Assembly (NCBI GenBank): GCA_028277585.1
Contig: JANQFY010000271.1
Coordinates: 1-34,999 of the forward strand
DNA length: 34,999 nt
Origin: Sedimentisphaerales bacterium
GTDB lineage: Bacteria; Planctomycetota; Phycisphaerae; Sedimentisphaerales; Anaerobacaceae
Direction: 5' to 3'
Positions 8,368 to 34,416 of this stretch are shown piece by piece. Both the position numbers and the translations under genes were made by a program. The first letter of the stretch is position 1, and every line of letters begins with the position of its first letter. The notes beneath the pieces were generated by a model. It was not told the origin of the DNA. It made no database searches and was given only the letters and a program-made list of their open reading frames with translations.

Positions 8368-8422
8368 AACACGTCTCCTAACTCGCGCGATTCCGCTGGT
8401 TTCCAGATTCCACACGACAACC

Positions 8423-8451
8423 ATTAGATTCTCTGTGACAGCTTCTGTAAA
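8423..8451 (-). promoter_or_regulatory. Likely sigma70-type promoter of the sialidase-like gene
   Basis: On the minus strand, TTTACA (8446-8451) and TCTAAT (8423-8428) are separated by 17 bases. This would start transcription near 8416, about 50 bases upstream of the chosen ATG at 8367, which also supports that start over the one at 8424. Confidence 0.42.
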
Positions 8452-8623
8452 GGGCCGAGTCAGGTCAGCGAAATATCGGAAGAGGACCCTGGCATACGGC
8501 GGGTTGACTCCCTAGAATGCGGAAGAAGAGGCTCTGTTCTGGAGTGCCATTGTCGTAGGAAGCAGAAGAGCATTCGGCTCCCCGGTGCCGTGAGGCTGGG
8601 AGCTTATAAGGAGTTGCCCAGCC

Positions 8624-9610: not shown

Positions 9611-9966
9611 TGCCGGAGCAATTGCACTACCTGTTCGTCTGCCATGCGAATATGGACAGAAGCCCGACGGCTGAAGCCGCGTGCGCCAGAATCGCGGCAG
9701 AGAACAACTTGCCCATCGAGGCCAGTTCGGCCGGAGTGGCGCCGTACGCCAATCGGCCCGTCACCAGGGAAATCGCCGATCGGGCGGACAAGATCTTTGT
9801 CATGGAGCCTCGCATGGTGCAGGCGATGGTGGAGCAGTACGGCCAGGACCCCGCCAAGGTGATCTGTCTGGAAATCCTGGACGTCTATGTGCAAAACGAC
9901 CCGATGCTTGTCCGGCGACTGGAAGAGAAGATACGTGCGCATCTGGCCCGGGAGGGGCTGGTGTAG
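9610..9966 (+). CDS. Small CX5R (low-molecular-weight phosphatase-like) protein
   Basis: A 118-residue cytoplasmic protein whose start overlaps the stop of the secreted protein upstream. It opens with LFVCHANMDRSPTAEA, a CX5R(S) loop (Cys11, Arg17, Ser18) at the end of the first beta strand, as in low-molecular-weight protein tyrosine phosphatases and arsenate reductases. A later EILDVYVQNDP segment (Asp91, Asp97) resembles the shorter COG4551-type group. That group keeps the phosphate-binding loop but is smaller than the standard 150-residue enzymes. Substrate and even catalytic activity are unknown. The fold assignment is fairly secure. Confidence 0.74.
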   Translation: MPEQLHYLFVCHANMDRSPTAEAACARIAAENNLPIEASSAGVAPYANRPVTREIADRADKIFVMEPRMVQAMVEQYGQDPAKVICLEILDVYVQNDPMLVRRLEEKIRAHLAREGLV

Positions 9967-10008
9967 AGGTTCGAACGGCGGGGGATTGTACGAAGGGAAG
10001 GGGACGTT

Positions 10009-12147
10009 ATGCGACGGATACCTTGCTTGTTCCTTGTTCTGATGGCGGCATGTTCCAGCGGTGTTGGCGTGGAAGCGGCCGAGGACCTGCGGGTGCTCGA
10101 GAGGTGGATCGAATGGAGCGACGGGGGCGCCATGCTGATGAAACACCTCAACACCGAGGCGTTTCGCCATCTGGACGCGCGCGATCGCATCATCGCCGAC
10201 CTGCAGAGCGCCGAGGACTGGCAGCAGCGACAGCGGGACGTCCAGAAAACGCTCCAGGAAATCGTCGGGCCGTTTCCCGAGCGGACGCCCCTGAATGCAA
10301 GGGTGACGGGGGTCGTTACGAAGGAGGACTATCGCGTTGAGAAGATCGTTTTCGAGTCGATGCCCGGCTATCTCGTCACAGCCGCACTCTTCATTCCCAA
10401 CAATCTGACGGAGAAGCGTCCCGCCATCCTCAACGTGATCGGCCATTCGACGACCTCCTTTCGCCGCGACATCTACCAGGTCGTGATTCTCAATCTGGTG
10501 AAGAAGGGGTTCATTGTCCTGGCGATGGACCCTTACGGACAGGGCGAGCGGATCGACTACTTCGATGCGGAGAAGGGCAGGTCCAAGGTCGGAGGCTCGA
10601 CGGGCATTCATTCCTACATTGGCAATCAGATGTTCCTGACAGGTGTCTCGCCCGGCCGGTACTTTGTCTGGGATGGGATTCGGGCGATCGACTACCTGCT
10701 GACCCGCGAGGAAGTGGACCCCGAGCGGATCGGCCTGACCGGCCTGTCCGGCGGTGGCACGCAGACCAGCTACATCTCCATCTTCGACGATCGTGTCAAA
10801 GCGGCCGCTCCCTCGTGCTATATCACCGGGTTCAGGCGTTTGCTGGAGTCGATCGGTCCCCAGGATGCGGAGCAGAACTTCTACCACGCCGTGGCGCGCC
10901 GGCTGACCCATGCCGATTTCCTTGAGGTTCGGGCCCCACGCCCCACGCTGATCGTCGCGACGACGCGCGACTTCTTCAGTATTCAGGGCGCGCGAGAGAC
11001 CTACACCGAGGTCAAGAAGGCGTACGTCGCGCTGGGGCATGAAGACCATATCCTGTTGTCTGAGGACGACTATGAGCATGGGTTCACCGCCAAGAATCGG
11101 GAAGCCACCTATGCGTTCTTCCAGCGTTTCCTCGATCTGCCTGGGGATCCAACTGATCAAGCCGTCGAGACACTCAGCGCCGACAAACTGAATGTGACAC
11201 CCACCGGGCAGTTGGCGACGTCGTTCAAGGGGCGAACGCTTTTCGATGTGCACAAGGTCACGCTGGATCGACTGGCGGCGAAATTGGACGCGTCACGCAG
11301 GCATGCGGATTCGCATTTGCGGCAGGTCCGGAATCGGGCGAAGACGCTTTCCGGATTCAGGGCGACGGAACGCGTCGGCGAAGTTATCTATCGCGGGCGG
11401 TACCAGCGCTCCGGGTACACGGTCGAACGTCTGGCCCTGCCCGGAGAGGGGGACACCGTCATTCCTCTGCTGGCGTTCGTTCCCGAGGGCGCCGGTCCTC
11501 ACCCCGTGGCTTTGTGGATGCACCCTGACGGAAAGGCCGCTGATGCAGCGCCGGGCGGAGCGATCGAGCAATGTGTCCGGTGGGGTCGCCTGGTCCTGGC
11601 GCCTGACGTTCTGGGCGTAGGGGAGACGCGCAACACGGTGGTCAATTATCCGTCCGCCGCCCATTATGGCGCCATTCTCATCGGGCGGAGCCTGCCCGGT
11701 CTGCAGGCCGGGGACATCCTGCGCGTGGTCAAGTACGCCCGGCAGAGGGACGACGTGAATCCCCAGGACACCCTCGCGCTGGCCCGGGGAACTCTCTGCC
11801 CCGCGCTGTTGCACGCCGCGGCGTTCGATTCCGACATTCGCGCTATCGTTTTGGATCGACCTTTGCTCTCGTACCATCTCCTGGCGGCCCACCGGCACTA
11901 CAGATACGACATGCATGCCACCGTGGCCGGTGCACTGACGGCGTACGACCTGCCCGATCTGATGGCCTGCTGCGCCCCGCGTCGGCTTGTCGTAGTTGAT
12001 CCCGTAGACCATCTCAGCAACTCGGCTGCACCAGCGCTAATCGACGCGCAATACGCCTTTCCGCTCGAGACCTATCGGGCCCAGAATGCCTCAGAAAACG
12101 TATTCATCGCCCAAACGCTGGACGAGGCGATCGAGCGGGCCATGTGA
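10009..12147 (+). CDS. Exported two-domain alpha/beta hydrolase (acetyl-xylan-esterase-like)
   Basis: A 712-residue exported protein with an N-terminal signal (PCLFLVLMAACSSG) that may be a weak lipobox with Cys15 as lipid site. The first domain (about 80-375) is an alpha/beta hydrolase with nucleophile elbow GLTGLSGGG (Ser247) and probable Asp321 (TTRDFF) and His357 (YEHGF). That completes a catalytic triad and resembles carbohydrate esterases and dipeptidyl-peptidase-like hydrolases. The second half (about 430-712) repeats the fold outline (PHPVALWMHPDG, LVLAPDVLGVGET). It has ALARGTLCP where the Ser elbow should be, so it is probably inactive and may bind substrate. Its neighbours suggest de-esterification of a glycan. 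It starts 42 bases after the CX5R gene, with AAGGGGA as ribosome site. Confidence 0.82.
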   Translation: MRRIPCLFLVLMAACSSGVGVEAAEDLRVLERWIEWSDGGAMLMKHLNTEAFRHLDARDRIIADLQSAEDWQQRQRDVQKTLQEIVGPFPERTPLNARVTGVVTKEDYRVEKIVFESMPGYLVTAALFIPNNLTEKRPAILNVIGHSTTSFRRDIYQVVILNLVKKGFIVLAMDPYGQGERIDYFDAEKGRSKVGGSTGIHSYIGNQMFLTGVSPGRYFVWDGIRAIDYLLTREEVDPERIGLTGLSGGGTQTSYISIFDDRVKAAAPSCYITGFRRLLESIGPQDAEQNFYHAVARRLTHADFLEVRAPRPTLIVATTRDFFSIQGARETYTEVKKAYVALGHEDHILLSEDDYEHGFTAKNREATYAFFQRFLDLPGDPTDQAVETLSADKLNVTPTGQLATSFKGRTLFDVHKVTLDRLAAKLDASRRHADSHLRQVRNRAKTLSGFRATERVGEVIYRGRYQRSGYTVERLALPGEGDTVIPLLAFVPEGAGPHPVALWMHPDGKAADAAPGGAIEQCVRWGRLVLAPDVLGVGETRNTVVNYPSAAHYGAILIGRSLPGLQAGDILRVVKYARQRDDVNPQDTLALARGTLCPALLHAAAFDSDIRAIVLDRPLLSYHLLAAHRHYRYDMHATVAGALTAYDLPDLMACCAPRRLVVVDPVDHLSNSAAPALIDAQYAFPLETYRAQNASENVFIAQTLDEAIERAM

Positions 12148-21649: not shown

Positions 21650-22360
21650 CTATGACAGGAGACTGTCGATATCGAGAAGGTTCTCGAGGCTGGTGATCAC
21701 GGGGGCCGCGATGTCTCTGTCCGGCTCGGGCCAGGATCGGGACAGTTGGTGGTGTTTGATCCAGATGGCGTGCAGCCCCGCGTCGGTCGCGCCGCAGATG
21801 TCCGCATGCCAGTCGTCGCCGACAAAGACGGCTTGGCTTGGTTCAACCCCTAGAGTTTCCAGGCACGCCTGAAACACGCGAGGATCCGGTTTCGGGGGAA
21901 CGCCTTCTTCACCCGCGATGATCACGGTCTCGAAGCATTTCATCACTTCCGGCATTTGGACCAGGCGATGTTTCTGCGAGCCGGCCTGCGCCTGGGTGTT
22001 GGAAATGGCCGCAAGTCGGTAGCGACCAGCGAGGTTCCGCAATGTGCTCAAGGCCTCGGGAAACAGGACCGTACGATCCTTGACCGCCTGCCAGTACTCA
22101 TCCTCCCATTGATCGAGCAGGGACAGATCGCAGTCCCGGCAATAGTGCCAATAGACTTCTTCCCAGAGGGCTTTCCGAGAAAGCTTGGATTCGGCGTGAC
22201 GCTGCTTGCGCAGGGGGCGATAGACTAAGAGGAAGTCCTCCCATGAGTTGACGCAAATATTCTCGAAGATCTTCTTCTGCGCTTGTTTTTCGGCGTATCG
22301 GAAGCCGTCGGTGGAATCCACGAGCGTCTGGTCGAAATCGAGGAGGATGGCCTTGATCAT
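21650..22360 (-). CDS. HAD-superfamily hydrolase (YjjG-like), last gene of the phosphonate-amine operon
   Basis: A 236-residue soluble phosphatase-fold protein. The HAD motifs are complete: LLDFDQTLVD (nucleophile Asp8, acid Asp10), AISNTQAQ with the motif II residue, a Lys in PPKPDPRVF, and VGDDWHADICGA with the magnesium-binding acids. A helical cap lies at about 20-95. This is the HAD subfamily of nucleotidases and small phosphate-ester hydrolases. It does not carry the DWAGT-type opening of phosphonoacetaldehyde hydrolase (PhnX), so I do not call it a C-P bond enzyme. It lies 95 bases after the aldehyde dehydrogenase, with a hairpin in the gap and no clear ribosome site. Its level may therefore differ from the genes upstream. 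Confidence 0.85.
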   Translation of the reverse strand: MIKAILLDFDQTLVDSTDGFRYAEKQAQKKIFENICVNSWEDFLLVYRPLRKQRHAESKLSRKALWEEVYWHYCRDCDLSLLDQWEDEYWQAVKDRTVLFPEALSTLRNLAGRYRLAAISNTQAQAGSQKHRLVQMPEVMKCFETVIIAGEEGVPPKPDPRVFQACLETLGVEPSQAVFVGDDWHADICGATDAGLHAIWIKHHQLSRSWPEPDRDIAAPVITSLENLLDIDSLLS

Positions 22361-22397
22361 AGGAGAATCCGATTACGTGTTCGCCTGCCGTATGATC

Positions 22398-22431
22398 TCG
22401 GGGCCCGACGTTTGAGTGCATCGGGCCCCGA
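22398..22431 (-). repeat. Perfect 11-bp inverted repeat between the aldehyde dehydrogenase and HAD genes
   Basis: TCGGGGCCCGA (22398-22408) pairs with TCGGGCCCCGA (22421-22431) around a 12-base loop. The stem is very GC-rich and lies just after the dehydrogenase stop. No T-run follows on the minus strand. It is likely an RNA-stabilising or partly terminating hairpin within the operon. Confidence 0.55.
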
Positions 22432-22455
22432 ACGTGTCAACAGAATCGAGGAGGG

Positions 22456-23844
22456 CTAGTCCCTGCCCCACTTCGCCAGGTAATCGCCGAACAATTCCTC
22501 ATCGCTGGGGATGTGCTCGGGAACTGGAATCGACAGCCAGGTGAAGTTGAGGAACTGGCGCCAGTTGATGTTGTCGGTGGTCATGTTGCCGGCCCACGAT
22601 CCGCAGCCCAGCGAATCGGTGGTCGGTTGGCCGTTGAACCAACTGCCGCTGTTGGCCGCGGCGTGGGGCATGTTGCAGTTGACCCGGCCCACGTTGGTTT
22701 TGAGCGCCAGTTCGATCCGGCGATCGTCGTTTGTACTGTGCAGCGAGACCGAGTGGCCTTCGCCCGAGAATTTCAGGATGCGTCCCGTCCGCTCCACGAT
22801 CTCGCTGAAGTCCGTCCACTTCCAGACGGTCAGAACCAGGGAAATCTTCTCGCCGGAGAAGCGGTCCTCAGCGCCGACCTTCTGGCCGATGACCATCAGG
22901 AAACGCGTGCCCTCGGGGACCTTGATCCCGGCGTTCTCGGCGATGTACAGGGCGGGTTTGGCCACAATGTCTCGGTTGAGCGTCTTGCCGTCAGGCCACA
23001 TGTACGACCTGAGTTTCTCTCGCTCTTCGTCGCTGCACATATAGCCGCCCTCGGCCTTCAGGGCCTCGATCATGTCGTCGTAGACGGCTTCCTCGATCGC
23101 CACGGCGTTCTCGGAAGAACACGAGGCCGAATTGTTGGCCGTCTTGGACTTGACGATTTTCGCCGCCGTCGAAGGCAGGTCGACCGTATCGTCGATGATC
23201 GAAACCACGTTGCCGGCTCCGACCGTGTGGCACGGCTTACCGGCCGCGTACACAACCTTGACCAGCGCCGCGCCGCCGGTGGCGATCGCGAAGTCGCAGT
23301 TCTTCATGAGTTCGACCGTCTTCTCTTTGCTCGTCTCTTTGATACACTGCATCAGGTCTTCCGGGGCGCCGACCTTGCGAAGGGCCTTGCGTATATGTTC
23401 GACGGTCAGGTACGAACTGCCCTGGGTTCTCGGGTGGGGCGAGACGATCATCGCGTTTCGGCACTTCAGGGCGCTGAGGCTCAGACAGCAGACCGTCGAC
23501 TCGGGATTGGTGCAAGGCACCACGTTGGCGATCACGCCCATGGGCTTGGCGTAGACGCGCAGGCCCTTTTCCGTGTCCTCCTCGATGAGACCACAGGTCT
23601 TGGCGCCGACCATGTCGCGCATGATGCCGCGGGTCTTGTTCTGGATCTTGTGGACCTTGTCCTCGTACACGCCGATCCCGGACTCGTCCACCGCCAGGCG
23701 GGCGAGCTTCTTGGCCGTCTCTTCCTTCTGCAGTTCCCAGCCGACCGCCGCACACATTTCGTCGACCTTGTCCTGCGGCCAGTATTCGATGATCTTGAAC
23801 GCGGCTCGCGCCTTCTCGTACATTTGTTGAATATTGTCAGCCAT
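22456..23844 (-). CDS. CoA-acylating aldehyde dehydrogenase (SauS/AdhE-N/EutE-like)
   Basis: A 462-residue dehydrogenase of the acylating type, which turns an aldehyde plus CoA and NAD(P)+ into an acyl-CoA, or the reverse. The order of motifs follows the N-terminal half of AdhE: ESGIGVYEDKVHKIQNK, KTCGLIEEDTEKG, PMGVIANVVPCTNPESTV, and SPHPR. The catalytic cysteine lies in SASCSSENAV (Cys242). NAD-binding glycines lie near VGAGNVVSII. SauS-type enzymes use sulfoacetaldehyde. Here the upstream phnW and PbfA-like genes suggest phosphonoacetaldehyde as substrate, giving phosphonoacetyl-CoA; that is inference. A good AAGGAGG site precedes the ATG, 77 bases after the preceding gene. Confidence 0.88.
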   Translation of the reverse strand: MADNIQQMYEKARAAFKIIEYWPQDKVDEMCAAVGWELQKEETAKKLARLAVDESGIGVYEDKVHKIQNKTRGIMRDMVGAKTCGLIEEDTEKGLRVYAKPMGVIANVVPCTNPESTVCCLSLSALKCRNAMIVSPHPRTQGSSYLTVEHIRKALRKVGAPEDLMQCIKETSKEKTVELMKNCDFAIATGGAALVKVVYAAGKPCHTVGAGNVVSIIDDTVDLPSTAAKIVKSKTANNSASCSSENAVAIEEAVYDDMIEALKAEGGYMCSDEEREKLRSYMWPDGKTLNRDIVAKPALYIAENAGIKVPEGTRFLMVIGQKVGAEDRFSGEKISLVLTVWKWTDFSEIVERTGRILKFSGEGHSVSLHSTNDDRRIELALKTNVGRVNCNMPHAAANSGSWFNGQPTTDSLGCGSWAGNMTTDNINWRQFLNFTWLSIPVPEHIPSDEELFGDYLAKWGRD

Positions 23845-23921
23845 CGTAACTACAAGCCTCCTTGAAGTGCGAATTGTCTTCTATGTCGAATCATCGCAGC
23901 GCTTGCTGCCTGCGAGACTTC

Positions 23922-24971
23922 CTACAGTTTCTTGCCGACGGATTTGATGCCGGTCTTCTTGCTCGGGTCTTCAATCTCCTCGTGGATGGAATAGCCGCTA
24001 CCCAGGACCTTCTTGCGATCTTGCTCGGCTTTGTTCCACTGGTCCAGATCCTTGCAGAGTGCCGACTTGGCGTGCTTGTCGCGATCCGCCAATGGCGGGA
24101 CCGGTCGATCGGCTTGCCCGTCATAGCATTCCTTGGGCGTCAGGGGCTGGCCCAGCTTCTGGTAACTGCCCCGTTCGACCTCTTCGATGTAGTGGGCGCC
24201 GGCTGCGAAAGATCGCGTCACGGCCAATATCGCCCAAGTCGCTTCAGGCGAGAAACCGAGGTCCATCATGACCGATCCCATAGCGCCGAGCATATCGATA
24301 TCCACCGGCGTGTCGCTGGCCTCTTGAGCGGCCTTGGCGATGGCTTTGATCAACTCAACGTAGGTCCCCGCGACACCCAGCTTCTCCGCTCGGGCAATCA
24401 TACGCTTGGCGGCCGGGTCCTTGAGCATCAGGTCGGAAACGCCCAGCGATTCACTGCCCAAGTGCTCCTTAACGATTCCCTGAGCGATCTGCTCGATGCT
24501 GAGCCCCTGGGCCTGACCGGCTTCGAGGCTGTCGAGCAGCATATTGCCAAACGCCGAATAGGCGCCGTAGGCATGGCCGAACGCCAGGATCGAGGCGCCG
24601 CAAGCCTGTGTCAGGAAGGTCTTGCTCTGCGCCACCAGCCGGGAAATCGCCACCGGCATGGAGAGCCCGTCCTCTAACGCTAGGATCATGACGTAGTTGA
24701 GCATCTTGTCTTCTTCGGTCGTGGGAATCCGGGCCTGGAAATCCACGAAGAGAACATCCGTGACGCCGTAGCCTTCCTCGACCAGTTCGGTGGTGTCGTA
24801 GCCGCGCGCCACGATGCGATGCACATTCTTGTACGCGACTTCCGAGACCCACTGGAAACGCGCGCGTTTGTCGTCCAGCGGCACGGTGCCGTATTCACGT
24901 TGACTGTAATCGTAGGGCAACCCAGGGTTATCTAGATTGCCAATGCCTTTCTTGTCACCTAGATCACCCAT
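23922..24971 (-). CDS. Citrate-synthase-like protein 2, catalytic residues lost
   Basis: A 349-residue protein of the citrate synthase/citryl-CoA lyase superfamily. Landmarks include RGYDTTELVEEGYGVTDVLF (56-75), ASILAFGHAYGAYSAFG (126-142), DMLGAMGSVMMDLGF (226-240) and VTRSFAAGAHYIEE. At the three usual catalytic points it differs from true citrate synthases. The first His of HGG is Tyr135, the His in the GHRVY/GHPxH loop is absent (SLGVSDLMLKDP), and the catalytic Asp is Leu228. The substrate-binding Arg of the GRTAG-like helix is kept (TRSF). Both termini carry charged extensions. It overlaps the first citrate-synthase-like gene by 13 bases and has a strong GGAAGGAGAG site, so the two probably form a complex. 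A conventional synthase reaction is unlikely for this chain alone. Confidence 0.82.
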   Translation of the reverse strand: MGDLGDKKGIGNLDNPGLPYDYSQREYGTVPLDDKRARFQWVSEVAYKNVHRIVARGYDTTELVEEGYGVTDVLFVDFQARIPTTEEDKMLNYVMILALEDGLSMPVAISRLVAQSKTFLTQACGASILAFGHAYGAYSAFGNMLLDSLEAGQAQGLSIEQIAQGIVKEHLGSESLGVSDLMLKDPAAKRMIARAEKLGVAGTYVELIKAIAKAAQEASDTPVDIDMLGAMGSVMMDLGFSPEATWAILAVTRSFAAGAHYIEEVERGSYQKLGQPLTPKECYDGQADRPVPPLADRDKHAKSALCKDLDQWNKAEQDRKKVLGSGYSIHEEIEDPSKKTGIKSVGKKL

Positions 24972-25855
24972 TGCTTGTACTCTCCTTCCTCTTTCTGCTT
25001 CTTAGCATATTCCTGTCGATCCTCTTGCTTGGGAACGACGCGGTCTTCCGGCCCAACGTATTTGATCATGCTCAGATCGATGACCTGGACCATCGGCTCG
25101 CGGCGCGATGCGCCCCAGGCCCGTCCTCGTTTCATATTGAACAGGGCGTGGGCCGCACAACTGAAGCCGCGACACACACTGCCGATGCACCAGGCGGCGT
25201 TCGGAGCAAAGCCGATGTCACACAGCGCCGTATTGCCCGCGCCGACAACGTTCACGCCGACGTAGGAACGACCTTCGGCCTTGCGTCGGGCGTGGAAGTG
25301 TTTCTCGATCGCCCGCTGCATCTGGAGGTAGACGCCGTTGAGTTCGAGTTCTTCCTGCTTCAAGTGAATCGGTTCGGCCCGCGGGTCGCTGTCAATGTGC
25401 TGGGGCTGCCCCATTCCCATAACGGGCTTCTTGTTGTCGAGGTACTCGTCGACGAGAATCTTCGCCATCTCGTCAACGGTCTTGCCCTCGTCGTGGGCTC
25501 GCTTGAGGTACTTCTTCATCATGTACCCGTGAGCGGCTCCCGGGCCGTGCACGCCGCCGAACGTGGTGATGGACGCGGCGATCGCACAGGGCAGATTGGG
25601 CCGGCCGATGCTCACGCCAATGGCGCCGACAGCCGAGGGGGACATCGAGTGTTCCAGGAAGACGCCCATCTCGTACTTGAGCATCTTCTCTTCGGGCTCC
25701 GTCGGAAGCCTATCCTGGAACAGCACGAACATCGCATCGTAAAACGAATAGCCCTCTTCCGCCAGTTCGCTCAGGTCGTACCCGCGCAGGACGGTCTTCT
25801 CCTCCGTTTTGTAAGAGATGGAGGTCTTTCTCTCGAGCGGTGGCTCTCTGTCCAT
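24959..25855 (-). CDS. Citrate-synthase-like protein 1, partly degenerate active site
   Basis: A 298-residue relative of the next gene product, with the same opening (LRGYDLSELAEEGYSFYDAMF). It keeps the first catalytic His (TFGGVHGPGAAHG, His103) and the Arg in VCRGFSCAAH. The loop that reads GFGHPxHKxxDPRA in active relatives is GMGQPQHIDSDPRA here, so the first His is Gln150 and only the second (His153) remains. The catalytic Asp position in VNVVGAGNTALCDIGF is Val204. The C-terminus has the family's YVGPEDR. It may bind an acyl-CoA with a changed chemistry, for example hydrolysis, lyase action or isomerisation. It starts 12 bases after the dehydrogenase-like gene with AAGGAG upstream and overlaps its paralogue. 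The family is clear and the reaction unknown. Confidence 0.84.
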   Translation of the reverse strand: MDREPPLERKTSISYKTEEKTVLRGYDLSELAEEGYSFYDAMFVLFQDRLPTEPEEKMLKYEMGVFLEHSMSPSAVGAIGVSIGRPNLPCAIAASITTFGGVHGPGAAHGYMMKKYLKRAHDEGKTVDEMAKILVDEYLDNKKPVMGMGQPQHIDSDPRAEPIHLKQEELELNGVYLQMQRAIEKHFHARRKAEGRSYVGVNVVGAGNTALCDIGFAPNAAWCIGSVCRGFSCAAHALFNMKRGRAWGASRREPMVQVIDLSMIKYVGPEDRVVPKQEDRQEYAKKQKEEGEYKQWVI

Positions 25856-25867
25856 GTCTTCAACTCC

Positions 25868-27037
25868 TTATTGGTCAGACAGTTCTGTCTTCTGTTCGTG
25901 AATGATCAGCCGACGTTTCTTCAGTTCCGCGAAAATGACTTCCGGGTCAAACGCCTCCTCGGGAGTGATGACGCCGGTCTTCTCCACCTTGCCCTGAGCC
26001 AGCAGCGTTGCCCCGATCGCCATGGGAATGCCGACGTTCCGGGTATAGGCGCGGAGCTTCTCCCAACCGGGTTCGGAGCCGTCCGAGGCGGGGTGGGTGT
26101 GGGTCAGAATGTACTGGTAGGTCTTGCCATCCTTCTGTCCGATGACTTCGATGTACAGGGCATAGCCGTACAGTTCGGTTTCCGTCCCTTCGGGGCTGTT
26201 GAGCAGATACTGAGCGATCAAATCGAGGATGCCCGCTTCAGCATCACCGACTCTGACCTTGTCGTTCCGCATGAAGCCCCAGTCGTACAGCGTGCGAACG
26301 AGCTGCATGTTCTTGGGGGGCCACGTGCCGCGCACCTCGATCAGGCGAACGCCCTTATCCTTGAGGGCTTTGGACAAGGTCAAGGTCTCGGCGTGGGGGA
26401 TGATGTACTCCGGATGCGTGCCGTAGGGTTCCGGCAGCGCGATGTCACGGGGTCGAGCGAAAGGCGGAACCTGCTTGTACTCGCCGTCTTCGTAGACGAT
26501 GCGCCCGGGCAGATTGGGGTCGTATTCGTAGCGCGTCGTCTCAGCGATTGCCGCCGAGAAGGCAACCGGTCGAAAGGCGCCGTGACTGACGCGGATCGTG
26601 TCGACGGTGTCGAGTTGGTTGGCGGCCGACATTGCCATCATGTTGGTCGTGCCGGGCGTCATGCCGAAGCCGGGCACGCAGGTCCTACCGTGCTTCCGGA
26701 ATTTGCCGTCGTACTCGTCTTCGGCACCGAAGCCGTTCAGATTAATGCCGTGAATACCCGCCTTGGCGATGCAGGCTGTCGAATCGCCGTTCAGGGCAAT
26801 CGTCGTCCCGTCCAGCGCGACGCCGTAGCCCTCCAGAACCTGGGCCGTCGCGTCATGGTCAGTGACATCGACACGTACGAAATCGACGCGCGGGTCGTTC
26901 AGCCATTCCGCAACCTTGCGTCCCTCCGCTTCGTCATAATCCGCCACCGTGATCTTCTCAAAGTCGGAGAACTCAACCAGGTCGAACAGGGACTCACGGG
27001 CGATTCGACCCGCTCCACCCAAACAGATTGCTTTCAT
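25868..27037 (-). CDS. Saccharopine-dehydrogenase-family oxidoreductase
   Basis: A 389-residue protein with an N-terminal nucleotide-binding fold (AICLGGAGRIARES at 3-16, acidic end of strand two in ITVADYDEAEG) and a central GFGMTPGTTNMMAMSAANQL block. The C-terminus carries GVITPEEAFDP and RLIIHEQ, both typical of saccharopine dehydrogenases and carboxynorspermidine-type enzymes. The family joins or splits an amino group and a keto or aldehyde group with NAD(P)H. In this operon it could act on an imine or secondary amine formed from an aldehyde and an amino acid, but the substrate is unknown. Its ATG overlaps the PbfA-like stop by one base (TGATG), which ties its expression to that enzyme. 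Confidence 0.84.
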   Translation of the reverse strand: MKAICLGGAGRIARESLFDLVEFSDFEKITVADYDEAEGRKVAEWLNDPRVDFVRVDVTDHDATAQVLEGYGVALDGTTIALNGDSTACIAKAGIHGINLNGFGAEDEYDGKFRKHGRTCVPGFGMTPGTTNMMAMSAANQLDTVDTIRVSHGAFRPVAFSAAIAETTRYEYDPNLPGRIVYEDGEYKQVPPFARPRDIALPEPYGTHPEYIIPHAETLTLSKALKDKGVRLIEVRGTWPPKNMQLVRTLYDWGFMRNDKVRVGDAEAGILDLIAQYLLNSPEGTETELYGYALYIEVIGQKDGKTYQYILTHTHPASDGSEPGWEKLRAYTRNVGIPMAIGATLLAQGKVEKTGVITPEEAFDPEVIFAELKKRRLIIHEQKTELSDQ

Positions 27038-28413
27038 CAGTCACAACCCTTTCTTTCCGCTTCGCTGAGGCACTGATCCAGTATGTCCAGCGCCTTATCC
27101 ATTTCGTCTCGGGTGATCGTCAGAGGGGGAGTCAGTGTGATGATGTTGCCCATCGTCACCTTGAAGCTGAGCCCTTTGTCCAGGGCGCTGTACATCACCT
27201 GCTCGGCCATGTCCACGGCCGGTTCCTTCGTCTGGTGGTCCTTGATCAATTCAATGCCCATCAGCAGACCAAGCCCCCGGGCGGCGCCAATTGATTCGTG
27301 CCGCTCCTTCATCGCTTCCAGTCGGGTCAAGGCGTGCTCGCCCATGCTCCTGGCGTTGGCGATCAGGTCGTCCTGTTCCAGCGATTCGATGGTCGCGAGC
27401 GCCGCCGCACAGGCGACGGGGTTCTTCTCATGCGTATAATGGCCCAGCGCGATATCCTGGGCGACATCCAGGTCTGCGCGAGCGATCAACGCCGCCAGCG
27501 GGAAGATCCCGCCGCCCAGGCCCTTGCCGATGACCAGCATATCGGGAACGACGTCGAAATTCTCGCATGTGAACATTCTGCCCGTGCGCCCCAGGCAATG
27601 GGGGATCTCGTCGAGGATCAGCAGTGCGCCGTACTTGTCACACGCCTGGCGGACTCGCTTCCAGTAGCCCTTGGGGGGAATGACCGACGTGCTGCGCGTC
27701 GTCTCGGCGATCACCGCCGCGACATCGCCTTCCTTGCGAAGGACGTATTCAATGTAGTCGACGCATTTGAAGGTGCAATCGTCGGCGCATCCCCACATGC
27801 AGCGATAGCAGTCCGGTGGTGGGGCGTGTTCGGTGCCGGGCAGCAGGGGGCCGATGTCCTTGCGGAAGATCGTCTCTCCGCCAATGGAGATCGCATCGAG
27901 CGACGCCCCGTGGAACGAGTCCCACATCGAGATCGTCTTGAACCGGCCCGTCGCCAGCCGCGCCAGTTTCAGCGCCATGCCGATGGCGGTGGTCCCGCCC
28001 GGCGCCAGAAGAATCTTGCCCAGGTTGCCCGGTGCCAGTTCAACCAACTTCTCGGCGAGCTGAATCGCCGGAACATTCGTATAGCGACGCGTGCAGAACG
28101 CCAGTTCCTCCATCTGATCCTTGACGGCGTCGATCACGCGGCGGTTCGCGAACCCGACCTGATGGACATTGTTGCCATGAAAGTCCATGAACTGCCTGCC
28201 CTGCAGGTCGGTCAGCGTGATGCCCTCGCAGTGGGACAGCACGTTCAGGCACGGGGTCGAGAGCGACTGACGCAGGAAGTACCGGGCGTCCAGATCGAGC
28301 CAGCGCTGTGTCTCGGCGTCGATGTTCTCTTTCGCCCACGCCGTGCGGCGCGGGGAGATGTTGAGATCGCCCTCGGATTGCATGCTTTCGTGGTGTTCTT
28401 CTTTCGATGACAT
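27037..28413 (-). CDS. pbfA: Class III aminotransferase-fold PLP enzyme, PbfA-like ammonia-lyase
   Basis: A 458-residue PLP enzyme. I start it at 28413 (MSSKEEHHES), with GGGGAAGAG upstream; the longer frame to 28494 would overlap phnW and has no ribosome site. Visible features are FHGNNVHQVGFAN (78-90), DSFHGASLDAISIGGE (165-180), LILDEIPHCLGRTGRMF (Asp268, cofactor ring) and VIGKGLGGG (Lys297, PLP Schiff base). This set resembles (R)-1-hydroxy-2-aminoethylphosphonate ammonia-lyase, which makes phosphonoacetaldehyde and ammonia and is usually next to phnW, as here. It carries a Cys-rich insert with Cys202, 205, 209, 213 and 217. Alternatives are a transaminase such as taurine:pyruvate aminotransferase. 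The fold is firm; the PbfA call rests on family resemblance and neighbour. Confidence 0.68.
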   Translation of the reverse strand: MSSKEEHHESMQSEGDLNISPRRTAWAKENIDAETQRWLDLDARYFLRQSLSTPCLNVLSHCEGITLTDLQGRQFMDFHGNNVHQVGFANRRVIDAVKDQMEELAFCTRRYTNVPAIQLAEKLVELAPGNLGKILLAPGGTTAIGMALKLARLATGRFKTISMWDSFHGASLDAISIGGETIFRKDIGPLLPGTEHAPPPDCYRCMWGCADDCTFKCVDYIEYVLRKEGDVAAVIAETTRSTSVIPPKGYWKRVRQACDKYGALLILDEIPHCLGRTGRMFTCENFDVVPDMLVIGKGLGGGIFPLAALIARADLDVAQDIALGHYTHEKNPVACAAALATIESLEQDDLIANARSMGEHALTRLEAMKERHESIGAARGLGLLMGIELIKDHQTKEPAVDMAEQVMYSALDKGLSFKVTMGNIITLTPPLTITRDEMDKALDILDQCLSEAERKGCD

Positions 28414-28468
28414 TGGCGCTCTTCCCCAATCGTCAGACTGTCGACTCACCCGGTTCCGTAGAACCCGT

Positions 28469-29602
28469 TCACCGGAGCTTGACGCCCATCTCAATCAGCG
28501 TCTCTTGAATGGCCGCCAGAAGGGCGCGAACGTCCGACTCGGAGATTCGGCCGATGTTCCCGATGCGGAAGCAGTCGGCGTCGCTGACTTTGCCTGGATA
28601 GATCACGTAATCCTTTTCATTCAGGTGCTCGTAGAACGCTTCGAATTGGAAATTGGCGTCTTCGGGGTACAGGAACGAGGTGATGATGTACCCCTGGTCT
28701 TCGCGTGCCAGGTATTCCTTGAATCCGAGCCGCTGCATTCCCTCCATGAGCGTTTCGTAGTTGTGCCGGTAGCGGTCGCCTCGGCCGGCCACGCCGCCTT
28801 CGGCCTCCAACTCCGCCAGGGCTTGTCGAAACGCGATCAGCGTATGGGTCGGCGGTGTGAAACGGAACTGCCCGTTCTTCTCCAGGCCGCGGTACTGCTC
28901 CAGCAGGTCGAGGCTCAGGGTTCGCGAATAGCCGGCCGTCTTCTCCAGAGCGTCGATCCGGGCCAAAACAAACGAGAAGCCGGGGACGCCTTCGATGCAC
29001 TTATTCGCCGAAGAGACCAGGTAGTCGATGCCGCACTCCGGGAGATTGACGGGCACGGCCCCGTAGCTGCTCATGGCGTCGACGAAGTAGGTCGCTTTGG
29101 TCTTGCTAACGATCTCGCCGATCGCGGCGATGGGATTGATGATGCCCGTCGTCGTCTCACAATGGACGACGGCGACGTTGGTGATTCCCGGGTCGCCGTT
29201 CAACGCCGCTTCCACCTGCTCCGGGATCGGTGTCGTGTTCTCGGGATACTCAAGCGTCACGGTTTCAATCTTGAGCACCGATGCCATCTTGACCAGCCGC
29301 TTGCCGTACGCCCCGTTGACGATCACCAGGAGCTTGCCGTCGGGCGGCACGGTGGAGGAGATGACCGCCTCCAGGCCGAACGTGCCGCTTCCTTGCATGA
29401 GAACCGTCGTATATTCGTCGAGGCCGGCTTGGCCGAGTTTGACCAGTTCGTCGCGAATCTCCTTCACCAACCCAATGAACTCGAAATCGCGAGACCCGAG
29501 GTCCCTCAGCATGGCTTGCTTGACCGTCCGACTCGTCGTCAGCGGACCCGGGGTGAAGAGCACTTTGTCCTTCCAACCAGAGATAGTCGCTTTGGGCTGC
29601 AT
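28469..29602 (-). CDS. phnW: 2-aminoethylphosphonate:pyruvate transaminase
   Basis: A 377-residue class V aminotransferase-fold enzyme. It moves the amino group of 2-aminoethylphosphonate to pyruvate, giving phosphonoacetaldehyde and alanine. Characteristic PhnW segments are [18 protein letters not shown] (15-32), [18 protein letters not shown] (65-82), [10 protein letters not shown], and [21 protein letters not shown] carries the ring-stacking Asp175. The PLP lysine is in [12 protein letters not shown] (Lys201). The length is normal. It is the first gene of the operon, downstream of an AraC-family gene on the same strand. GGAGG lies 13 bases before the ATG, a little far. Related enzymes can use other small amines, so the phosphonate substrate is likely but not certain. 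Confidence 0.87.
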
Positions 29603-29669
29603 GATCCAGACTTAACCTCCACAAGCAATACGTCAAAACGAAGTAGCATCGGAACCCAATTCCGGGCGG

Positions 29670-29750
29670 ATTATGCGACAGATGCCCGATTCAGACCATG
29701 CACAAAATTGTTCATTACCTGGATTATTCTGTTGTTTTGCGAGTGTTAGG
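29670..29750 (-). promoter_or_regulatory. Candidate promoter and activator site upstream of phnW
   Basis: On the minus strand CATAAT (29670-29675) is a good -10 element about 68 bases before the phnW ATG, with no good -35. A run of AT-rich DNA in an otherwise GC-rich region lies just upstream (about 29701-29740). It contains ACAAAATTGT, a small inverted repeat, at 29702-29711. A weak -35 with an AT-rich block is what an AraC-type activated promoter often shows. The site assignment is inference. Confidence 0.38.
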
Positions 29751-29791
29751 AAAGACGCCTCTTCATCAGGGTGTTCGCGCCGTGATGGGCG

Positions 29792-30619
29792 TCACAGAGA
29801 GGCTCTGCGGATGTGGGTGCGGAACTCTCCGGGCGAGACGCCGCTGATGCGCTTGAACATGCGTGAGAAGTAGAATGGGTCGTCAAAGCCAATCGCCTGG
29901 GCGATTTCATAGACATAAAGGGATTCGTCGGCGAGCAGTTTCTTCGCACGATCGACACGCATCTGTTGAATGTAGCGCATGGGGGGGACACCCAGGACCG
30001 ACCGGAACACGTGCGTGAGATGGCACGGGGAAACGCAGCAGTGCTCGGCGACTTCGGAGACGGAGACCTTCCGCTGCAGGTTGCGTTCGATGTAGCCGGC
30101 GGCGCGTTCGGCCAGGATGGCGCCTTTGCCGGAGGCTTTCTCAGCTTCCGGTGCAGGGCGGTCGATCTGACAATAGCGTCTTATGCGGCTCATGATCTCC
30201 AGGATCAGCGCCTCGATCTTACTTTCGGTTCCGGGCTTGTCCTTCCAGATCAGATGGAGGATCTGTTCGAACAGATGGGCCGACCATCTCTCAGCGTTGC
30301 TGAGATGCTGGCGCTCGGGAGGGCAATCCGCCAGGAATTCTCGGGACCCGCCGGTCTCGTCCAGCAGATCGAACCGAAGTGTGAAGATATCCAGGTGCTC
30401 GCCCAGTATTTCTTCGCTGTGGAGTTGCCCGGGCTGGACGAAATAGAGATCCCCATCGCTTCCGATGAAGTCGGCCTGGTCGATACTGCAGCGCATCCGA
30501 CCCTTCTTGATGAGGACCAGTTCCGTCTCCCGGTTGGTGTGTTCGGGCCAGACCCAGTAGCGGTTAATCCTCGCTTTGTGGATGCGCAGAAACCGGGGTA
30601 CGAGACTCTCTTCGCTCAT
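29792..30619 (-). CDS. AraC-family transcriptional regulator
   Basis: A 275-residue regulator. The N-terminal half looks like a cupin-type sensing domain (TELVLIKKGRMRCSID, GDLYFVQPGQLHSEEI). The C-terminal 100 residues hold the two helix-turn-helix units of AraC/XylS proteins: VSVSEVAEHCCVSPCHLTHVF and LYVYEIAQAIGFDDPFYFSR, then MFKRISGVSPGEFR. It sits between the phnW operon (same strand, 189 bases downstream) and the divergent HAD-amidotransferase pair. It is therefore the natural regulator of both, probably sensing a pathway intermediate such as an amine or aldehyde. That target is inferred from position. Confidence 0.9.
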   Translation of the reverse strand: MSEESLVPRFLRIHKARINRYWVWPEHTNRETELVLIKKGRMRCSIDQADFIGSDGDLYFVQPGQLHSEEILGEHLDIFTLRFDLLDETGGSREFLADCPPERQHLSNAERWSAHLFEQILHLIWKDKPGTESKIEALILEIMSRIRRYCQIDRPAPEAEKASGKGAILAERAAGYIERNLQRKVSVSEVAEHCCVSPCHLTHVFRSVLGVPPMRYIQQMRVDRAKKLLADESLYVYEIAQAIGFDDPFYFSRMFKRISGVSPGEFRTHIRRASL

Positions 30620-30805: not shown

Positions 30806-31570
30806 ATGACTGAATCTGCCGTACGAGCGATCACCTTCGATTTGTGGGACACACTTCTTATCGACGATTCGGACGAACCGAAACGCGCGGCCCAGGGGCT
30901 TCGCTCCAAGCCGGCTGAGCGGTGCGCCCTCGTTCAGGAATTCCTGGAGCGTCATGAGCCTATCTCCAGAGAACTTCTGGAGGTTGCCTACGCGACGACC
31001 AACGCCGCCTTCCGCCAGGTCTGGTATGGTCAGAACGTTACCTGGACTGTTCGCGAGCGCCTCTCGGTTCTGCTCAAGGGCCTGGGACGTACCTTGCCTG
31101 AGCCGGAACTGGACGAACTGGTGCGCCTGCACGAGGAGATGGAACTGGCCGTCAAGCCCGATCTGGCGCCCGGGGTTGAAGAGGTCCTGAGCGGTCTGAA
31201 GGGCAAGTACCAGATGGCGGTGATCTCCGACGCGATTTTCACGCCGGGCCGTGCTCTGCGCCAGATACTGGCGGATTACGGCCTTCTCCAGTACTTCGAC
31301 GCCTTTGTGTTCTCCGACGAGATCGGCTGCTCCAAGCCGGCCCCCCTCGCCTTCGAGACGGCCGCCCAATCGCTGGACGTCGCCCTCGGCGAGATCGCGC
31401 ATATCGGAGATCGTGAACCCAAGGATATCAAGGGCCCTCACGCTGTCGGCGCCCGGGCCATTCTGTGTACGGTCGTCAAAGACCGCGGGAGCCAGAGCAC
31501 CGAGGCTGACGCCATTTGCGGCGATCTTCTCGACCTGCCGGCCATTCTGGACGATCTGAACAAACATTGA
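30806..31570 (+). CDS. HAD-superfamily hydrolase
   Basis: A 254-residue soluble HAD hydrolase. Motif I is ITFDLWDTLLIDD (Asp12 and Asp15 as nucleophile and acid/base), motif II is AVISDAIF, motif III has the Lys in GCSKPAPLAF, and motif IV is HIGDREPKDIKGPHAVG. A helical cap lies between about residues 25 and 110. This is the general HAD-IA group of phosphatases and dehalogenases. It lacks the PhnX opening, so a role in C-P bond cleavage is not supported by motif. It is divergent from the AraC regulator and is followed 15 bases later by an amidotransferase gene, so the two form an operon. GGGAG precedes the ATG. Substrate unknown. Confidence 0.87.
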   Translation: MTESAVRAITFDLWDTLLIDDSDEPKRAAQGLRSKPAERCALVQEFLERHEPISRELLEVAYATTNAAFRQVWYGQNVTWTVRERLSVLLKGLGRTLPEPELDELVRLHEEMELAVKPDLAPGVEEVLSGLKGKYQMAVISDAIFTPGRALRQILADYGLLQYFDAFVFSDEIGCSKPAPLAFETAAQSLDVALGEIAHIGDREPKDIKGPHAVGARAILCTVVKDRGSQSTEADAICGDLLDLPAILDDLNKH

Positions 31571-31585: not shown

Positions 31586-32446
31586 GTGACAGCAGGATTG
31601 CGGTTTCTCATCATCGATGGCTATCCCCGGAAGAGCCGGGACGACCTTGAAGCGGCCGGTATGAAGCTCGCGTGGAAGCTCTACGCCGACATGCTCCTGC
31701 AGCACCTGCCCGATGCCGTCTACGATGCTCTACTGCCAAGTGACGCCGGTGTGGACATGCCCTCGGCCCAGGACCTCCACAACTACGCCGGTATCATCTG
31801 GACAGGCTGCAATCTGTCCATTTTCGACCTGGAGAACCCGAGCGTTGTCAATCAAATCGAACTGGCCAAAGCGGCCTACGAGGTCGGCGTGCCCAGTTTC
31901 GGGAGTTGTTGGGGAATCCAGATGGCCGCCGTCGCCGCCGGGGGCGAGGTCGAGCCCAATCCGAAGGGCCGCGAGATGGGAATGGGCCGCAAGATCCACC
32001 TGACGCCCGAGGCCCACACGCATCCCATGTTCGAAGGCAAGCCGCCCGTCTATGAGGGGTTTGTGAGCCATGACGACATGGTGACCAAGATCCCAGCGGG
32101 GGGGACGTTATTGGCGGGCAACAGCTTTGCCAGTGTCCAGGCCCTGGAGGTCAAGCACAAGAACGGGGTCTTCTGGGCGACTCAGTACCATCCCGAGTAC
32201 GACCTCCACGAAATGGCGCGATTGATTGTCGCTCGGGAGAAGAAGCTTGTCAAAGCCGGGTTCTTCCGGGGGCACGACGATCTGATGGACTACGTGGATC
32301 GCCTGGAGGCGCTGAGCGCCGAACCGGATCGCAAGGACCTGCGCTGGCAGTTGGCAATCGACGACGATCTGCTCTCCGACCCAATTCGGCAGTGCGAATT
32401 CGTCAATTGGATCAGTAAGCTGGTCCTACCCACCGCCGGCCGGTAG
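31586..32446 (+). CDS. Stand-alone class I glutamine amidotransferase-like protein
   Basis: A 286-residue protein read from a GTG at 31586 with CGGAGGAAA just upstream. It has the class I amidotransferase triad: nucleophile Cys108 in SFGSCWGIQMAA and His202/Glu204 in WATQYHPEYD. The GMP-synthase-like 'GF.SHDDMV' block is at about 158-166. There is no fused synthetase and none beside it. About 80 extra residues follow the triad (VDRLEALSAEPDRKDL and on). Proteins of this kind either feed ammonia to a partner or hydrolyse gamma-glutamyl amides, as PuuD does in putrescine breakdown. Beside amine catabolism genes the second is attractive, but the partner and substrate are not known. It is convergent with the aldehyde oxidoreductase gene, 23 bases away. 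Confidence 0.86.
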   Translation: MTAGLRFLIIDGYPRKSRDDLEAAGMKLAWKLYADMLLQHLPDAVYDALLPSDAGVDMPSAQDLHNYAGIIWTGCNLSIFDLENPSVVNQIELAKAAYEVGVPSFGSCWGIQMAAVAAGGEVEPNPKGREMGMGRKIHLTPEAHTHPMFEGKPPVYEGFVSHDDMVTKIPAGGTLLAGNSFASVQALEVKHKNGVFWATQYHPEYDLHEMARLIVAREKKLVKAGFFRGHDDLMDYVDRLEALSAEPDRKDLRWQLAIDDDLLSDPIRQCEFVNWISKLVLPTAGR

Positions 32447-32469: not shown

Positions 32470-34371
32470 TTAGAGCGTCCACTCCAGACCGAGTTCACGC
32501 AACTTGGCCTCGGTGGGGTTGCCGGTTTCGCTGTCCCAGCCCATCAGACCATAGTAGGCGTCCAGCATCTTCGGGAAGGACCTGCTCTCGACGCACTTGC
32601 CCTGGGCCGGCCCGTCGGGCAGCGCCTTGTTGAGCCTCTCGGGGAGACGGTCGTGCTCGCGGGAAAAGCCTCTTCTGGTGTTGAGTTGCCTCATCATATT
32701 GATCCGGCGCTCGCCGACCTTCATCAACTCCCAGAGTGTGCACTCCCAGCCGGTCGTGTAGAGCAGTAGATCCTCGAGGTCGCGGTAGGTGAAGAGATTG
32801 CCCGGCCCCCAGCAGAACATGCAGAGGCCCAGCGTGTCGAGCACGCTGTAGAAACACTGGGAGTAGGCGGTCATCCGCACTTTGTCTATCTCATTGGATT
32901 CCAGAGCCTTGCGGATTTCGGGCTGTTCCGCAGCGGTGGTGTTCTGGAAGATGCCCAGTCCATTACGTGCTTCAGAATCACTGGCCAGGAGCCAGTCATG
33001 CTCCGACGACATATGGTCCGGCCCGATCGGACAAGCCGCGTACATCAAAGCCTGGCTCGGTTTGACTTGCGCCATATGCACGGCCAAGCCGCTGTTTCTG
33101 ACATGTATCGCGAAATCAGCCGTCTGTGGACCGAGGTGTTCTATCGCGGCCGTGAAACCGTCGGCCAGTATGTCACCTATGCCCTTGCGCTGCGCGACGG
33201 CTTCTATGAGCCAGAACAGTGCCTCGGGATCGCCAAAGCTCAGCGACTTACCGTCCGTCGCTTCGGCCGTGATCGCGCCTTCTTCCGAAGATTCGAAGAG
33301 GTACGCCGCCAGCCCTCCCATCGTGATCGTGTCGATTCCGTAGTTGTTGCACAGCTCATTCGCCTTGGCGACTGCGACCGGGTCGGTGATGTCCAGGTTG
33401 GAGCCAAGGAGCCCCAGTGTCTCAAATTCGGGGCCGCCCAGCCGGTCGGTGACCTTGTAGGGCTTCTCCGCCTTCACTTTCTTGCGGCATCCGACAACGC
33501 AAGCGTAACAGGTCGTGAAGCCTGCTCCTATTTCGGGTTCGTACGTGGACCCGTCCAGCTTCTTGTAGTCCTGGTGAAAACTGCGCGAGTAGTTGTGTGT
33601 CGCCAGGTTCCCGGCCTCGGCCTGAAATCCCACCACGCCCGGCGTGCCGTGTTTTCTGAGGGTCGCGGGGAACCCGGAATCGGGCAATCGCTCCGAGGCC
33701 AGGCGGCCCAATCTCTTGAGCCCATCCGTGTCCGCGAAGTTGACCTTGTTGTCCCCTCGAACCACCACGGCGCGAAGATTCTTGCTGCCGAAAACGGCGC
33801 CCATGCCGGTTCGGCCGGCGACGTTGTTCAGGTCCGCCACCAGGCATGCGAATCGCACGAGGTTCTCGCCGGCCGGCCCGCATTGGAGGATGCTGAGCTT
33901 GCCGTCGCCCACCTCGTCCGTCAGCGCATCGTACGTATCCAGGACATTGCGTCCTTTCAGATAACTGGCGTCTTTGATCTGTATGTCATCTCCGTCGATC
34001 AGCAGATAGACCGGTGCTTCTGATTTGCCCGTGATGACGACGGCGTCGTAGCCGGCCCGCTTGATCATCGGTCCGATGCTTCCGCCGGTCTGGCTGTCAC
34101 CGATGGCGCCGGTTGCCGGCGACAATGCGGTGACACTGCAGCGACTCACGCCGCTGACGGCAGCCCCCGTTGTGACTCCGGGCGCGATGGTCAGTATGTT
34201 CTGTTCGCCCAGAGCATCGACGTCCGGCGACGTTTCCCTGAGAAGGAAGTACGTTCCGACGGCGCCCCCGCCCAGGTACATGCGGTAGAAGTCTTCGTTG
34301 AACTTTGGGGTCTCGATGGCACCGGTGGTCAGATTGACTCGAAGAATCGTTCCTGTAAAGCCGTTAGGCAT
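32470..34371 (-). CDS. Aldehyde:ferredoxin oxidoreductase (tungsten/molybdenum AOR family)
   Basis: A 633-residue cytoplasmic enzyme that oxidises aldehydes to acids with ferredoxin, or the reverse, using a metal-bis-pterin and one [4Fe-4S] cluster. I start it at 34371 (MPNGFTGTILRVNL), with GGAG eight bases upstream; an ATG at 34389 has no such site. The cluster cysteines are CYACVVGC (Cys288, Cys291, Cys295) and the later Cys517 in DTLGLCMF. Pterin-binding segments VAGRTGMGAVFGSKNLRAV and GPEFETLGLLGSNLDI are in their usual places. The length is typical. It lies downstream of an iron-type alcohol dehydrogenase on the same strand, so the pair could interconvert alcohol, aldehyde and acid. 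This points to anaerobic metabolism. The substrate is open; the nearby aldehyde-forming operon is suggestive. Confidence 0.93.
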   Translation of the reverse strand: MPNGFTGTILRVNLTTGAIETPKFNEDFYRMYLGGGAVGTYFLLRETSPDVDALGEQNILTIAPGVTTGAAVSGVSRCSVTALSPATGAIGDSQTGGSIGPMIKRAGYDAVVITGKSEAPVYLLIDGDDIQIKDASYLKGRNVLDTYDALTDEVGDGKLSILQCGPAGENLVRFACLVADLNNVAGRTGMGAVFGSKNLRAVVVRGDNKVNFADTDGLKRLGRLASERLPDSGFPATLRKHGTPGVVGFQAEAGNLATHNYSRSFHQDYKKLDGSTYEPEIGAGFTTCYACVVGCRKKVKAEKPYKVTDRLGGPEFETLGLLGSNLDITDPVAVAKANELCNNYGIDTITMGGLAAYLFESSEEGAITAEATDGKSLSFGDPEALFWLIEAVAQRKGIGDILADGFTAAIEHLGPQTADFAIHVRNSGLAVHMAQVKPSQALMYAACPIGPDHMSSEHDWLLASDSEARNGLGIFQNTTAAEQPEIRKALESNEIDKVRMTAYSQCFYSVLDTLGLCMFCWGPGNLFTYRDLEDLLLYTTGWECTLWELMKVGERRINMMRQLNTRRGFSREHDRLPERLNKALPDGPAQGKCVESRSFPKMLDAYYGLMGWDSETGNPTEAKLRELGLEWTL

Positions 34372-34416
34372 GACATATCTCCATAGCACGCGAGCGCACC
34401 TGACATCAAGTCCGGC

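Follow-up and report, generated by a model that had tools for sequence, protein, structure and literature searches.

The gene cluster

This analysis concerns a cluster of genes in a Sedimentisphaerales bacterium (phylum Planctomycetota), located in contig JANQFY010000271.1 of assembly GCA_028277585.1. The whole stretch of DNA analysed, of 34,999 nucleotides, is termed the window. The features are itemized in full in Table 1. Transcribed from the minus strand, the cluster begins with an AraC-type regulator, followed by the 2-aminoethylphosphonate (AEP) aminotransferase PhnW, PbfA and a saccharopine-dehydrogenase-like protein (SDH). It then continues as two proteins with the fold of citryl-CoA lyase (CS4 and CS3), a CoA-acylating aldehyde dehydrogenase (ALDH) and a HAD-family protein (HAD1). 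PbfA and SDH share one base, a gap of 12 bases separates SDH from CS4, and CS4 and CS3 overlap by 13 bases. These positions and couplings are all as given in an earlier examination of the window from its letters (the sequence-only reading). The start of PbfA is probably the ATG near 28413 and not the TTG at 28494 in the list of open reading frames (ORFs), because the family match begins only at residue 40. A search for repeats upstream of phnW gave nothing convincing. On balance the operon would break down aminophosphonates to phosphonoacetaldehyde and from there open a third branch, with ALDH forming phosphonoacetyl-CoA and CS4/CS3 converting this into acetyl-CoA and phosphate.

Table 1. Features of the gene cluster and adjoining genes, in window coordinates
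Feature	Position	Strand	Assignment
AraC-type regulator	29792..30619	-	Pfam HTH_18 and AraC_binding; probable controller of the operon
PhnW, AEP aminotransferase	28469..29602	-	NCBIfam, over cut-offs
PbfA	27037..28413	-	NF049939; start inferred from sequence, 28494 in the ORF list
SDH, saccharopine-dehydrogenase-like	25868..27037	-	PF16653 and PF03435; accessory
CS4, citryl-CoA-lyase-fold subunit	24959..25855	-	Best matches are citryl-CoA lyases; proposed C–P-cleaving subunit
CS3, second citryl-CoA-lyase-fold subunit	23922..24971	-	Proposed partner of CS4
ALDH, SauS-like CoA-acylating aldehyde dehydrogenase	22456..23844	-	NF047625
HAD1, HAD-family protein	21650..22360	-	PF00702; accessory, or rival C–P hydrolase
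HAD2	30806-31570	+	Pfam; possible member
Class-I glutamine amidotransferase-like protein	31586-32446	+	Pfam; possible member

The head of the operon

The identities given to phnW and the PbfA-like gene in the sequence-only reading are borne out by curated cut-offs. PhnW scores 492 bits against NF010006 (cut-off 296), 480 against TIGR02326 (cut-off 401) and 462 against TIGR03301 (cut-off 361), and PbfA scores 707 against NF049939 (cut-off 525).

The same regulator–PhnW–PbfA head is found in another genome of the order (G057, cluster L159), where the regulator is 45% identical to that of the window, PhnW 54% and PbfA 51%. The G057 cluster also encodes PhnA (483 bits, cut-off 408) and PhnY (638, cut-off 636), which are replaced in the window by the cassette of CS4, CS3 and ALDH. 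Since both sit behind the same head, the comparison hints that the cassette does the job of PhnY and PhnA, oxidizing phosphonoacetaldehyde and breaking the carbon–phosphorus (C–P) bond. The presence of the 45% identical regulator beside phnW-pbfA-phnY-phnA also makes it plausible that the AraC-type protein controls the operon, as had been claimed earlier, although the control itself is a prediction.

Conservation of the core cassette

Homologous loci were collected by scanning genome contigs with CS4; of the 73 obtained, many are contig ends. The CS4 matches are 67–86% identical, except that of L102, which is to its CS3, so that 68 CS4 rows are counted. Matches with internal stops or less than 85% coverage were left out of the alignments; with the window included these comprise 69 rows for CS4 (L102 among them), 58 for CS3, 51 for ALDH and 34 for HAD1. 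A core of CS4, CS3 and ALDH, often with HAD1, recurs, CS3 being present in 67 of the 73 loci and ALDH in 52. The gene set is conserved well beyond chance. Both CS genes were located in 56 loci besides the window, and in 27 of these their overlap is exactly 13 bases, as it is in the window. A search for co-occurrence of all six families had been proposed in the sequence-only reading; the core does co-occur, but SDH was seen near the cassette only in the window and in L047 (68% identical), and is thus outside the conserved core.

Ten phyla are represented, by label, among the 68 CS4 proteins placed in a tree: Thermodesulfobacteriota, Planctomycetota, Spirochaetota, Chloroflexota, Myxococcota (bins titled Deltaproteobacteria), Verrucomicrobiota, Pseudomonadota, Gemmatimonadota, Bacteroidota and Latescibacterota. 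The tree requires 20 changes of group against a minimum of 9, which is compatible with horizontal transfer without being proof of it. Most of the records are titled as metagenome-assembled genomes. By their titles L086–L091, except L088, come from rumen or other forestomach, and L092 from horse faeces; rumen ciliates contain AEP. Among 392 genomes of the window's phylum searched with CS3 at E ≤ 1e-20, only the window's own genome gave a match. A plasmid collection contains distant relatives only, with CS3 in 19 records at ≤28.4% identity, and SDH in 44 records at ≤30.8% identity among the matches listed.

Association with phosphonate genes

When the 883 predicted ORFs of the loci were clustered blind to function, the largest families after the CS proteins and ALDH were an aminotransferase (31 loci), HAD1 (27) and a zinc alcohol dehydrogenase (17), and the next was PbfA, with 16 ORFs in 12 loci. 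A gene of the AEP-aminotransferase family lies inside the cassette in 31 of the 73 loci, at two positions and with two subfamilies, in different lineages. In nine loci CS4 is preceded, within 4.5 kb and in the same orientation, by a PhnW 62–78% identical to that of the window. An AepZ-like aminotransferase (33–44% identical to the window PhnW) directly follows CS3 in 22 loci, and the one of these that was tested passes the PhnW–AepZ cut-off (409, cut-off 361). Other neighbours tested are an HpnZ-like alcohol dehydrogenase (310, cut-off 328), a phn_DUF6-like membrane protein (143, cut-off 288) and a PhnX-like protein (170, cut-off 219). PhnA is encoded directly upstream of CS4 in two Verrucomicrobiota bins, at L066:7559-8863 (479, cut-off 408) and L093:3775-5184 (467, cut-off 408); in both it is preceded by the gene of an XRE-type regulator. 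A fragment in L082 was considered as a further PhnA and dropped, having no NCBIfam match at E 1e-30. Altogether PhnW/AepZ, PbfA, PhnA or a PhnX-like protein occurs in the DNA examined of 38 of the 73 loci.

The genomes behind 50 of the loci (49 genomes) were searched with the curated cut-offs applied. PhnW/AepZ is over its cut-off in 36 of the 49 and PbfA in 31, against a PbfA background of 9 among 392 genomes of the window's phylum (own genome included), which is unmatched for other phyla. PhnX is over its cut-off in none of the 49; a Vibrio PhnX scores 322 against the cut-off of 220. PhnA is over its cut-off in three, with G756 just below (402, cut-off 408). Among the 36 genomes with PhnW/AepZ, G769 has PhnA and G756 nearly does, and in the remaining 34 neither PhnX nor PhnA exceeds its cut-off. 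The same holds for the window's own genome (80% complete), in keeping with the sequence-only reading, which saw neither in the operon. Biosynthesis rather than breakdown was rejected as a general explanation, since pepM is over its cut-off in only 4 of the 49 genomes and not in that of the window.

The aldehyde dehydrogenase

ALDH has as its best NCBIfam match the acylating sulfoacetaldehyde dehydrogenase SauS (NF047625), at 511 bits over nearly the full length but below the cut-off of 600. The AdhE model (376) and that for acetylating acetaldehyde dehydrogenase (321) match more weakly. The PhnY model TIGR03250 gives 31 bits against a cut-off of 636, so by this test there is no PhnY-type dehydrogenase in the operon, as had been read from the sequence. 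Cys242 is invariant in the 51 aligned rows. The substrate of SauS is the sulfonate analogue of phosphonoacetaldehyde, whereas the neighbours of ALDH are phosphonate genes. ALDH would thus be expected to act on phosphonoacetaldehyde with CoA and NAD(P)+, giving phosphonoacetyl-CoA.

The resemblance to SauS would also suit a core cassette that acts on a different aldehyde, for example sulfoacetaldehyde or malonate semialdehyde, and that is linked with phosphonate genes only in some cases. This would account for the 35 of 73 loci, including the Spirochaetia loci L083 and L085–L092, in which the DNA examined contains no strong phosphonate marker. Yet PhnW/AepZ and PbfA are frequent in the cassette genomes, and two aminotransferase subfamilies are present in the cassette in different lineages. 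The Spirochaetia genomes without a local marker have PhnW/AepZ elsewhere, over the cut-off in G785 and G788–G791 and as a partial match in G787. A role with another aldehyde is therefore considered very improbable.

The CS4 and CS3 pair

Both proteins resemble citryl-CoA lyase, or the citryl-CoA lyase module of ATP-citrate lyase, in fold and length. Their best NCBIfam citryl-CoA lyase scores are 106 for CS3 and 108 for CS4, below the cut-off of 193. AlphaFold models of the single chains have mean pLDDT of 77 and 73, and the best PDB match of both in Foldseek is 6hxp (E 3.4e-10 for CS4 and 4.2e-8 for CS3). The root-mean-square deviations from 6hxp are large (10.7 and 5.2), so the likeness is claimed for the fold only. 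The pair differs from citryl-CoA lyase in comprising two different subunits encoded side by side, and in the loss of catalytic positions. In CS4 the first catalytic histidine of 6hxp is retained (His103), and Gln150 and Val204 replace the second histidine and the aspartate; all 68 rows have either His-Gln-Val or His-Gln-Ile at the three positions. In CS3 all three positions are altered, to Tyr/Phe, Ser/Asp/Asn and Leu/Met/Ile, in 58 of 58 rows. Neither protein therefore has the His, His, Asp set of citryl-CoA lyase and citrate synthase. CS4 and CS3 probably form a heteromer.

In citrate synthase the aspartate abstracts a proton from acetyl-CoA, and the enolate is stabilized by the first histidine. 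The titles of PDB entries for ATP-citrate lyases with an Asp-to-Ala change, one of them in complex with citryl-CoA, are consistent with a catalytic role of the aspartate. The residues of CS4 and CS3 would thus point to C–P cleavage, not to condensation of the citrate-synthase type. CS4/CS3 would bind the thioester of phosphonoacetyl-CoA, with His103 of CS4 stabilizing the acetyl-CoA enolate that leaves as the C–P bond breaks; the products would be phosphate and, after protonation, acetyl-CoA. Loss of the aspartate fits such a mechanism, because C–P cleavage needs the enolate to be stabilized with no proton to be removed from C–H. The sequence-only reading gave the pair no role, and that proposed here is rated at even or fractionally better.

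The fold is that of an enzyme acting on C–C bonds, and CS4/CS3 might instead be a thioesterase, releasing phosphonoacetate from phosphonoacetyl-CoA for PhnA, or might condense phosphonoacetyl-CoA with a keto acid, the C–P bond being broken later. PhnA directly upstream of CS4 in L066 and L093 is what the thioesterase would predict, but the low count of PhnA in the cassette genomes, and its absence over the cut-off from that of the window, argue against it. Condensation is disfavoured in that both subunits lack the aspartate that serves this reaction in citrate synthase. These roles are judged distinctly unlikely beside C–P cleavage.

Two further features of the pair may be mentioned. One genome (G749, loci L031 and L078) contains two CS4–CS3 pairs, one with PhnW, PbfA and ALDH and the other with no ALDH in the locus DNA examined. 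In the Spirochaetia loci L085–L092 a longer citrate-synthase-like gene (446 aa), divergently oriented, lies just upstream of CS4, at about 8400-9740.

HAD1

The position of HAD1 was counted in the 40 loci where the DNA extends more than 1.5 kb beyond the downstream end of ALDH. In 29 of these it follows ALDH on the same strand at a distance within 1 kb; two have it at another place in the locus, and in nine it was not seen. Five of the nine genomes behind these last loci have HAD1 elsewhere at E ≤ 1e-30. The other four (G772, G775, G776 and G782) have no HAD1 at that threshold, G782 being a single chromosome of 3.27 Mb; nor has G757, where the contig ends early. HAD1 is present in 10 of 15 genomes searched. 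The inclusion of a HAD protein in the gene set by the sequence-only reading is thus supported by its frequency, but some cassette genomes lack it. Asp8 and the later HAD motifs are retained. At position 10, usually the second aspartate of HAD phosphatases, there is Gly in 22, Val in seven and Asp in three of 34 rows. PhnX, too, is not known to have this second aspartate.

HAD1 may be an accessory protein or, as the main rival to CS4/CS3, the C–P hydrolase. In the latter case it would be a divergent phosphonoacetaldehyde hydrolase, with ALDH then converting acetaldehyde into acetyl-CoA and CS4/CS3 acting on acetyl-CoA, or else it would hydrolyse phosphonoacetyl-CoA. PhnX is itself a HAD protein, and the change at position 10 and the frequent place after ALDH agree with a hydrolase. 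Against this, HAD1 is far below the PhnX cut-off, with no match for the window locus among the matches listed, and the four genomes without it, single-chromosome G782 included, retain the cassette. Action on phosphonoacetaldehyde is further disfavoured by the greater similarity of ALDH to SauS than to the acetaldehyde dehydrogenases. Cleavage by HAD1 is therefore held to be unlikely, and that by CS4/CS3 is preferred.

SDH and neighbouring genes

Homologues of SDH 55–64% identical occur in L026, L024 and L025. That of L026 belongs to an AEP cluster, with a PhnX-like–PhnW fusion, a phnS2 transporter protein over its cut-off and PbfA; those of L024 and L025 have no PhnW or PbfA nearby. The fusion (L026:3767-5806) joins in one ORF a PhnX-like HAD domain (TIGR03351, 204, cut-off 219) to PhnW, and adjoins the AEP ABC transporter, PbfA and the SDH homologue. 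The homologue of L025 belongs to a run of genes at 3408-10723 with, as labelled by eye, a GlpT-like transporter, a HAD protein, two FAD-type oxidoreductases and a choline-kinase-like protein. SDH (PF03435/PF16653) was considered as the racemase of 1-hydroxy-2-aminoethylphosphonate (HAEP), PbfF, and rejected because the Pfam families differ; PbfF is assigned to pfam02826 (PMC12366243).

Two MtmB-like methyltransferases lie between PbfA and CS4 in L030 and L031, at the position of SDH in the window. It is a guess that SDH and these proteins both handle N-substituted AEP. Such pairs of corrinoid methyltransferase genes (PF05369; one of eight tested) occur near PhnW or the cassette at L030:6400-9191, L031:7154-9958, L100:15169-17945 and L079:522-3369. 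Their frames are open, and therefore there is no in-frame TAG to be read as pyrrolysine.

HAD2 and the glutamine amidotransferase-like protein have homologues (74% and 76% identical) directly after HAD1 in L030 only. The latter gene is adjoined in the window by an ORF (32470-34389) that by eye resembles a tungsten-type aldehyde ferredoxin oxidoreductase; it shows no conservation with the cassette among the loci that were inspected visually.

Discussion

The gene set is probably best explained by a route through phosphonoacetyl-CoA. PhnW, from AEP, and PbfA, from R-HAEP, would both supply phosphonoacetaldehyde, which ALDH and CS4/CS3 would then take to acetyl-CoA. The energy of the thioester would be kept, because the product is acetyl-CoA and not acetate, as with PhnA, or acetaldehyde, as with PhnX. 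The sequence-only reading had placed an acyl-CoA branch here in the absence of PhnX and PhnA/PhnY; the branch has stood the comparison of co-occurrence, whereas the full gene set is not conserved. The chances are evenly balanced that the C–P bond of 2-carbonyl phosphonates is broken here in a new manner, with a two-subunit enzyme of citrate-synthase-like fold expelling phosphate from phosphonoacetyl-CoA through stabilization of the acetyl-CoA enolate, so that AEP and HAEP are converted directly into acetyl-CoA. The bacteria concerned, from sediments and animal guts, are mostly uncultured and probably anaerobic.

Several observations weigh against this route. Beside the loci lacking a strong marker, many of which are short, 13 of the 49 genomes have no PhnW/AepZ over the cut-off. 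The phylum has eight further genomes with PbfA that lack CS3 and are also without PhnX over the cut-off, so the absence of PhnX is weakened as an argument and is not by itself proof of replacement. In G756, G759 and G764, which carry pepM together with PhnW/AepZ, PhnW may be biosynthetic. Phosphonoacetate may matter in some genomes, because PhnA is directly upstream of CS4 in L066. The identity of the protein that breaks the C–P bond has been reached by inference.

The proposed route shares with the PhnW–PhnX (phosphonatase) pathway with PbfA the formation of phosphonoacetaldehyde by PhnW and PbfA, but has the CoA-acylating ALDH and CS4/CS3 instead of PhnX. As in the PhnW–PhnY–PhnA pathway, phosphonoacetaldehyde would be oxidized before C–P cleavage, here to a thioester and not to free phosphonoacetate; PhnA is missing over the cut-off from the window's genome, and PhnY was checked in the operon. 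A search of the literature found no description of an acyl-CoA route for phosphonate breakdown or of a pathway with this gene set, as the sequence-only reading had supposed. Phosphonoacetyl-CoA has been predicted to be formed by the BKACE enzyme BsfD in Flavophos biosynthesis in Burkholderia (PMC12871164); that pathway is biosynthetic and uses other enzymes.

If correct, the proposal would give phosphonoacetaldehyde a CoA-ester fate beside its two hydrolytic ones, and would bring a further protein fold, a new one, to C–P cleavage. AEP has been described as the most prevalent phosphonate in nature (PMC10590968). The route would account for the supply of phosphorus, carbon and energy from aminophosphonates in bacteria that have PhnW and PbfA but neither PhnX nor PhnA. 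Because such genomes would now be scored as lacking a C–P-cleaving step, the turnover of phosphonates in anoxic settings may be underestimated.

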